A stretch of 64,000 nt of DNA, from the NCBI GenBank assembly GCA_026400395.1, contig JAPLPD010000364.1, positions 1-64,000 on the forward strand. Reading direction: 5' to 3'. The stretch is from Alphaproteobacteria bacterium. GTDB taxonomy: Bacteria; Pseudomonadota; Alphaproteobacteria; Rhizobiales; Xanthobacteraceae. The notes beneath the pieces were generated by a model that ran no database searches, was not told where the DNA came from, and worked only from the letters and a program-made list of their open reading frames with translations. This document shows positions 60,376 to 63,060 of the stretch, piece by piece. The stretch's first letter is position 1; each line of letters begins with the position of its first letter. The position numbers and the translations under genes are program-made.

Positions 60376-63060
60376 ATGCACAACCTTTTCAATTCGCTCC
60401 AAACCTTCGACTACGCGGGCCAGCAGCGCCGTTACTACTCACTGCCGGCGCTGGAGCAGGCCGGTCTCGGCCGTGTATCGCGCCTGCCATACAGCCTGCG
60501 GGTGATGCTGGAATCGCTGCTCAGGAACTGCGACGGCAAGCGCGTGACCGAGCAACACGTCAGAAGCCTGGCCGGCTGGCAGCCCAACGACAAGCGCGAG
60601 GCCGAAATTCCATTCGTTGTGGCGCGCATCCTGCTGCAGGATATGTCGGGCTTTCCCGCCTTGAACGATCTGGCGATGCTGCGCGCCACTGCGGAACGCC
60701 TCGGTGCCGATCCTGCGTTGATCGAACCTTTGGTTCCGGTCGACGTGGTGGTCGATCACTCGGTGGAGGTCGATGTGCACGGCGCGCCGGACGCGCTGCG
60801 GCGCAACATGGAGCTTGAGTTCAAGCGCAATGTGGAACGGTTTCAGCTCCTGAAATGGAGCATGCAGGCGTTCGCGAACATCCGCGTCGTCCCACCCGGC
60901 AACGGCATCTGCCATCAGGTCAATCTCGAATACCTGGCCCGCGGCCTCTGCGAGAAGGATGGGGTTTGTTTCCCCGACACGCTGGTCGGCACCGACTCGC
61001 ACACCACCATGATCAACGGCATTGGCGTGGTCGGCTGGGGTTGCGGCGGCATCGAAGCCGAATCCGGCATGCTCGGCCAACCCATTTATATCCTCACTCC
61101 GGACGTTGTCGGCGTTCATCTGACCGGACGGCTGAACGTCGGGGTCACAGCAACCGATCTGGTCCTTTCGATTACCCAGTGGCTGCGCAAGGTCAACGTG
61201 GTCGGCAAGTTCGTCGAATACTTCGGCGAAGGAGCCACTGCGCTTTCGGTGACCGATCGCGCCACGGTGTCGAACATGTCGCCGGACTATGGCGCGACGC
61301 TTGGCTTCTTCGCGGTCGACGACAAAACGATCGACTATCTGCGTGTCACCGGCCGCGATCCCGCGCTGGTCACCGCGGTCGAGAGCTATCACCGCGCGCA
61401 GGGCCTGTTCGGCATTCCGCGCAAGGGCGACTGCGACTATTCGCAAGTGGTGGAGTTCGATGTTTCGAGCGTGGTGCCGAGCGTGGCCGGACCGAAGCGC
61501 CCTCAGGACCGCATTGACCTCGGCGGACTTGGAAGCCGCTTCCAGGAGCTATTGGTCAAGCCCGTGCCGGAAAGCGGCTATGGCAAGTCGCGCGATAAAC
61601 TCGGCATGCGGGCCGCCGTTGGCCCAGGGGGCACCGTCGGTCACGGTGACATCCTGATTGCATCCATCACGTCATGCACCAACACCTCCAACCCGAACCT
61701 GATGCTCGGCGCCGGCCTGCTGGCCAAGAACGCTGTCGAGCGTGGCCTCCGGATCAACCCGCGCATCAAGACATCGCTCGCGCCGGGGTCCAAGGTGGTG
61801 ACGGCCTATCTGCGCGACGCCGGCCTGCTGCCGTACCTCGAAACGCTCGGTTACAACATCGTCGCTTACGGCTGCACGACTTGCGCTGGTGCCTCCGGCC
61901 CGCTCGATGCCGAACTTGAACGGGTGGTCGCGGCAAACGATCTCATCACCGCCTCTGTCCTCTCGGGCAACCGTAATTTCGAGGCTCGCATCCATCAGAG
62001 CGTCAAAGCCAACTTCCTGATGAGCCCGGCGCTGGTCGTGGCGTTCTCGCTGGCCGGCAATGTCAACATCGACATTACGGCCGACCCGATCGGAACCGGC
62101 AGCAACGGCAAACCCGTTTATCTCAAGGACATCTGGCCGAGCGACCAGGACGTTGCGAGCGCGTTGAAATGGGCCAACAACCCCGATCACTTCCGCAAGG
62201 AATACGGCGATATGTCGGGCAACGCCGACTTATGGCGGCAAATTCCGGACAGCAGCGGCGCCGTATATCGATGGGAGTTGGCATCGACCTACATCAAGGA
62301 GCCGCCGTTTCTCGACGGCTTTGGCCTCAGTCCGCCGAACCTTCACGACATCGTCGGTGCGCGCGCGCTCGGAATTTACGGAGATTCGCTGACCACCGAT
62401 CACATCAGTTCGGTGGCGCCGATCACCCTCGCCTCGCCCGCCGGCCTATGGCTGAAGGAAAATGGCGCGGCTCCCGCCCAGTTCGGAAATTATGGAGTCC
62501 GGCGCTGCAACCATGAGGTCATGGTGCGCGGGACGTTCGCCAACGTGCGCATCAAGAACCAGATGGCGCAAGGCGCCGAGGGCGGTTTCACCACACACCA
62601 GCCATCCGGCGAGATGACGACAATGTTCGACGCCGCGGAGCGCTACCGCAAGCTTGGCGTGCCGCTGATCGTGTTCGGCGGGACCGACTACGGCACCGGG
62701 TCAGCGCGCGATTGGGCCGCCAAGGGCACCCGGCTGCTCGGCATCAAGGCCGTTGTGACGCGCAGCTTCGAGCGCATCCATCGCTCAAACCTGATCGGAA
62801 TGGGCGTGCTGCCGTGCCAATGGAAGGCCGACATGTCTTGGCAAAGCCTCCGCATCGATGGCAGCGAGACATTCGACCTGTTGGGCCTGGACGACATCAA
62901 GCCGATGCAGGACGTCACGCTGGCCATCCATCGCAAGGATGGATCGGTAGAGCGGGTCTCCCTTTTGCTTCGTGTCGATACGTCGATCGAAGCGGACTAT
63001 CTTCGTCACGGTGGAATTCTGCCTTACGTGCTGCGGGAGATCATGCCGACCGCGGCATAG
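60376..63060 (+). CDS. Aconitase A/IRP1-family hydratase with noncanonical active-site motifs
   Basis: [118 protein letters not shown]. Confidence 0.92.

Follow-up and report, generated by a model that had tools for sequence, protein, structure and literature searches.

A recurrent Ser643-to-Ala replacement in an AcnA-type aconitase paralogue linked to a tricarboxylate gene cluster

Changes in the active site of aconitases can accompany a shift in substrate, a precedent being yeast Aco2, re-specialised to homoaconitate, in which an active-site Arg to Lys replacement contributes to the preference for this compound (PMC3556520). In Salmonella, TcuA turns tricarballylate into cis-aconitate, according to a reference cited in PMC10468695, while the degradation of itaconate by Ict, Ich and Ccl proceeds through CoA transfer, hydration and C-C cleavage (PMC12290011). 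The aconitase gene described here occurs next to TcuA-like, transport and other putatively catabolic genes and encodes a protein with an altered active site.

The gene spans positions 60376..63060 (+) of the window, the whole 64,000-nucleotide stretch of DNA analysed, and its coordinates, strand and frame, as well as all four peptides quoted in an earlier sequence-only reading, match exactly. The 894 aa product belongs to the AcnA family, as judged from its scores against curated models (PRK12881, 1270 bits, cut-off 905; TIGR01341, 1213 bits, cut-off 945) and from the presence of both the Aconitase (PF00330) and Aconitase_C (PF00694) domains. An AlphaFold model built with 29 sequences (mean pLDDT 87.7) superimposes on human cytosolic aconitase (2b3x) with a TM score of 0.94. 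In the alignment with IRP1 and mitochondrial aconitase, the Fe-S cysteines (C434, C500, C503) and the catalytic serine (S776) are all kept, as had been proposed, and the triad S776, A777 and R778 corresponds to mitochondrial S642, S643 and R644. This variant is referred to as SAR and the canonical form as SSR. The codon of Ala777, GCG at 62704..62706 (+), bears out the earlier observation that the second serine (Ser779 in IRP1) has been replaced. SAR is also present in the orthologue from a congeneric genome (83% identity) and in one from a different family of the order (72% identity), and the gene is under purifying selection, with a dN/dS of 0.12 against the congeneric orthologue; a sequencing error or a pseudogene is ruled out on these grounds.

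The sequence-only reading listed several altered motifs, and only part of that list stands. Among the changes quoted, Ser777 to Ala is the only one that departs from a residue invariant in canonical AcnA proteins (Ser in 29/29 rows). The remaining three are ordinary variation shared with SSR enzymes: NRNFEARIH is the usual sequence of betaproteobacterial AcnA, seen in dozens of these proteins, and SSR enzymes too differ in the CxxC tail (CMGLAG or CIGNAG, for instance) and in the residues that follow DHIS (DHISPVA or DHISPST). EARIH, CAGASG and the DHIS tail were therefore rejected as marks of a new substrate. The other Asp, His and Arg residues mapped onto the protein, a list that follows the mitochondrial aconitase literature and does not include Arg580, are kept. 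In each of the seven SAR groups, positions 680, 90, 91, 93 and 169 differ from the residue of most canonical enzymes; among SSR enzymes these positions are more variable than position 777. Two of them, 680 and 91, add to what the sequence-only reading had remarked on. Position 680 (codon 62413..62415, +), usually Ala in DHISPAG, is Val in the window enzyme and Val or Ile in all seven groups; Thr91, close to an active-site Gln, is replaced by Ser, and by Ser or Ala across SAR enzymes. A literature search for direct work on the contacts of Ser643 gave none.

A separate, canonical SSR AcnA is encoded in the same genome (G000:C149:3147-5837), with the motifs CIGNSG, EGRV, DHISPAG and GSSRDW and 50% identity to the window protein. 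The window gene is thus, as had been suggested, not the housekeeping aconitase: it is neither the sole nor the principal aconitase, and with Ala777 it lacks the full substrate-binding set that includes Ser643. The SAR form is rare: searches with a degenerate DNA pattern, the counts of which are lower bounds, recovered SAR genes in at least 12 of 391 genomes of the family, at least 7 of 397 of the order and at least 2 of 398 of a phylum sample (the last two counts including the window genome), and one more SAR gene (in G031) escaped the pattern. An SSR enzyme also occurs in 18/18 genomes with SAR genes, so that SAR is always an extra copy. Separately, two phage records labelled Listeria phage (OR847101 and OR848887) carry a full aconitase gene on contigs of 3-6 kb, which are probably host DNA.

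The genes that surround the window aconitase point to tricarboxylate catabolism. Downstream lies tctC, encoding the substrate-binding protein of a tripartite tricarboxylate transporter (63086..64000, +, running past the end of the window, with a probable TTG start after GGGAGGAG), followed beyond the window by tctB, tctA, a CaiB-type CoA-transferase gene and a second TcuA-like gene (L010 9055-13972). Divergent from the aconitase are genes for an HMG-CoA-lyase-like protein (59189..60148, -), a GcvA-like LysR-type regulator kept in both relatives (58188..59084, -), a TcuA-like FAD dehydrogenase (56521..58065, -) and a CapA/PGA_cap-family protein (55136..56479, -), and a further TctC-type gene is found on this side. 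The neighbours recognised earlier (TctC, TcuA-like and HMG-CoA-lyase-like) were thus confirmed, with TctAB and the CoA-transferase just outside the window, and the cluster is conserved: the HMG-CoA lyase, LysR, TcuA, CapA, TctABC and CaiB genes are kept in G010 (59-91% identity) and most of them also in G269. The TcuA-like protein passes NF006130 (440 bits, cut-off 369) and falls below the cut-off of TIGR02485 (205 against 373). The HMG-CoA-lyase-like protein scores 247.8 bits against PRK05692 (cut-off 246) and keeps the catalytic Arg, His-x-His and Cys motif, with a metal-site Asp to Glu change likewise present in both orthologues. The CaiB-type transferase matches a solved succinate-hydroxymethylglutarate CoA-transferase with 245 bits. 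A citryl-CoA lyase gene, seen near other SAR enzymes, was not found in the window cluster.

Several further features were noted in this region. Among NCBIfam models, the window CapA protein matches that of a lasso-peptide Trp epimerase best, at 274 bits far short of the cut-off of 700, and CapA/PGA_cap genes adjoin SAR aconitases in two cluster types (window:55136-56479, L124:9223-10527, L141:4291-5739, L154:4145-6064). Within 6 kb lie three more TctC-type binding proteins (window:49825-50889, 52860-53888, 54139-55152), between which neither tctA nor tctB was seen. In the product of window:44897-47260 an FAD monooxygenase-type domain is fused to an old-yellow-enzyme domain, and a protein with 33% identity to it adjoins a citryl-CoA lyase and the SAR aconitase in L158 and L159; window:48767-49636 encodes an HD-domain protein distantly similar to the phosphonate oxygenases PhnZ and TmpB.

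Other SAR genes also occur in catabolic contexts. In six genomes (G177, G422, G857, G047, G031 and G212) they lie near CaiB and citryl-CoA lyase genes, the lyase of G177 scoring 414 bits (cut-off 261) and having homologues in the other five; the G177 and G422 clusters include a PrpF-like isomerase. A second cluster type, found on a Shinella plasmid and in G060, G355, G825, G830, G1009 and G1052, contains PrpD, TctC and, in most cases, a TPP enzyme, and often an aldehyde dehydrogenase or CapA. HMG-CoA-lyase-like genes were found only in window-type clusters, the Shinella-type having PrpD and the TPP enzyme instead, and SAR is therefore not a marker of a single pathway. Of the SAR genes, 16/19 have CaiB or PrpD nearby, against 0/21 of the SSR genes in these same genomes (Fisher p=1.5e-8; for CaiB taken by itself, 10/19 against 0/21), and a comparison with canonical loci from other genomes gave 17/20 SAR and 0/50 canonical loci; these counts rest on heuristic gene calls and on loci that are not phylogenetically independent, some reference proteins having been drawn from the same loci. 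A literature search for clusters of aconitase, CoA-transferase and citryl-CoA lyase gave nothing direct. A different conserved cluster, with PEP-mutase/isocitrate-lyase-family, amidohydrolase and isochorismatase-family genes, surrounds an SSR aconitase paralogue with GGKSG or SGKSG (L124:17157-23807, L163:7363-13101).

In both a 55-row FastTree and a 35-row IQ-TREE phylogeny, the window enzyme and its counterparts in G010 and G269 nest inside betaproteobacterial SSR aconitases, the genes of which lie in TCA clusters. The trees require at least three changes of state for SAR, with the placement of the longest branches (L139 and L158) unsure; a single SAR clade is ruled out (AU p=3e-6) and a grouping of the window and Shinella-type enzymes is disfavoured (p=0.024). 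Since SAR enzymes do not form one clade and the window clade lies inside SSR aconitases, Ser643 to Ala is, as judged from these trees, a recurrent change with at least three origins. Val680 is already carried by the nearest SSR relatives and so probably preceded the serine replacement in the window lineage. The presence of a betaproteobacterial-type copy in an alphaproteobacterial-looking genome suggests horizontal acquisition.

The window protein is a specialised and probably catabolic aconitase. On the evidence of sequence and gene context we favour, by somewhat better than even chances, a catabolic AcnA paralogue that keeps [4Fe-4S] dehydratase chemistry, has lost one polar side chain from its pocket and acts in a tricarboxylate pathway. 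In such a pathway TctABC would import a tricarboxylate, which the TcuA-like flavoenzyme, from its family, may desaturate to an aconitate-type acid; the window aconitase would hydrate this to a citrate-type 3-hydroxy acid, the CaiB-type transferase would convert the latter to its CoA ester, and the HMG-CoA-lyase-like enzyme would split the ester into acetyl-CoA and a 2-oxoacid, a step that in related clusters would fall to citryl-CoA lyase. The two lyases are plausible equivalents, since HMG-CoA and citryl-CoA share a 3-hydroxyglutaryl-CoA core and differ in the substituent at C3, a methyl group in the former and a carboxyl group in the latter. The recurrence of Ser to Ala and its tie to catabolic clusters suggest an enzyme retuned for a different substrate, and a pocket with the hydroxyl lost and bulk added at position 680 would favour a substituent of lower polarity. 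Against this reading, the TcuA-like and HMG-CoA-lyase-like families are broad, SAR genes also occur in Shinella-type clusters, where HMG-CoA-lyase-like genes were not found, and if the acid were plain citrate, cleaving it through a CoA ester would seem superfluous in a TCA-cycle cell. The substrate may also be an ordinary one, which we consider unlikely but credible: tricarballylate or trans-aconitate would be converted to cis-aconitate, as by TcuA of Salmonella, and hydrated by a dedicated, perhaps citrate-biased copy tolerating conditions that inhibit the housekeeping aconitase. The inhibition of aconitase by trans-aconitate (PMC11495376), the PrpF-like isomerase of two clusters and the citryl-CoA lyases near SAR enzymes agree with this, but it leaves unexplained both the repeated replacement of a serine invariant in the canonical rows and the CoA activation of citrate in a TCA-cycle cell.

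Improbable, in our view, is a C5 dicarboxylate route from citraconate or mesaconate through citramalate and citramalyl-CoA to acetyl-CoA and pyruvate; a pocket that has lost a polar side chain and gained bulk through Ala680 to Val would match the missing carboxylate, and the CaiB-type family has members named after mesaconate and glutarate, yet all mapped active-site arginines (Arg580 not being among them) are kept and the presence of TcuA and Tct families speaks for tricarboxylates. Very improbable is a redundant or condition-specific TCA aconitase in which the replacement is nearly neutral: the wide margins over the AcnA cut-offs and the TCA context of the nearest SSR relatives could indicate it, but Ser is present in 29/29 canonical rows, Ala arises repeatedly and in extra copies only, and SAR genes are strongly linked to catabolic genes. 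A phosphonomethylmalate-type (phosphonate) isomerase was also considered, and a search for papers gave nothing. That the replacement is repeated, independent and tied to catabolic clusters is explained most economically by a changed substrate. To this extent the proposal of a hydratase for another tricarboxylate is supported; the methyl-, homo- or otherwise substituted citrate that it named would be a candidate substrate beside plain aconitate or tricarballylate. The protein itself scores far below the cut-offs of the AcnD model (TIGR02333, 811 bits, cut-off 1420) and the homoaconitase models (TIGR00139, 85 against 530; HacA, 90 against 550), and both identities were rejected on these scores. 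More tentatively, and with a good deal of doubt, the clusters may represent an aerobic, CoA-dependent pathway for substituted citrate-type acids that has not been described before; Ser643 to Ala would then have converted aconitases to a new substrate at least three times, and either an HMG-CoA-lyase-like enzyme or a citryl-CoA lyase could serve, interchangeably, in the final step.

The interest of these enzymes lies in the recurrent replacement and its gene linkage: a serine beside the catalytic base, kept in all canonical aconitases compared, has repeatedly been replaced in aconitases of catabolic clusters. If this reflects a substrate switch, one residue would single out those "aconitate hydratase AcnA" annotations in which the substrate is misassigned, and the SAR clusters would become testable routes of tricarboxylate breakdown.

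Compared with AcnA and cytosolic aconitase (IRP1), the window enzyme is alike in fold, domain order, Fe-S cysteines, catalytic serine and mapped Asp, His and Arg residues, and differs by Ser643 to Ala, Ala680 to Val, Thr91 to Ser and its location in a catabolic cluster instead of a housekeeping locus. Its nearest relatives in the trees, the TCA-linked betaproteobacterial AcnA proteins of L041 and L043, are 61-67% identical and share EARIH or EARVH, with Val680 in L041 and in one of two tandem copies; unlike the window enzyme, they keep SSR and adjoin sdh, citrate-synthase-like and, in L041, mdh-like genes. Tandem SSR AcnA pairs were also observed in betaproteobacterial MAGs (L042-L046, e.g. 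L043:6136-11577), with copies that differ in the DHIS and YGxGS motifs and with sdh and citrate-synthase-like genes nearby in L043 and L044. AcnD, a 2-methylcitrate dehydratase, is likewise a paralogue of aconitase, one that acts on a substituted citrate, but it keeps SSR. The Salmonella tricarballylate pathway, in which TcuABC operates with the housekeeping aconitase, likewise has a TcuA-type dehydrogenase feeding an aconitase, whereas the window cluster has its own aconitase, a Tct-type transporter, a CoA-transferase and a lyase. With the itaconate pathway the window cluster would share the logic of CoA transfer, hydration and C-C cleavage, except that hydration by the aconitase would precede CoA transfer and that the lyase belongs to a different family.
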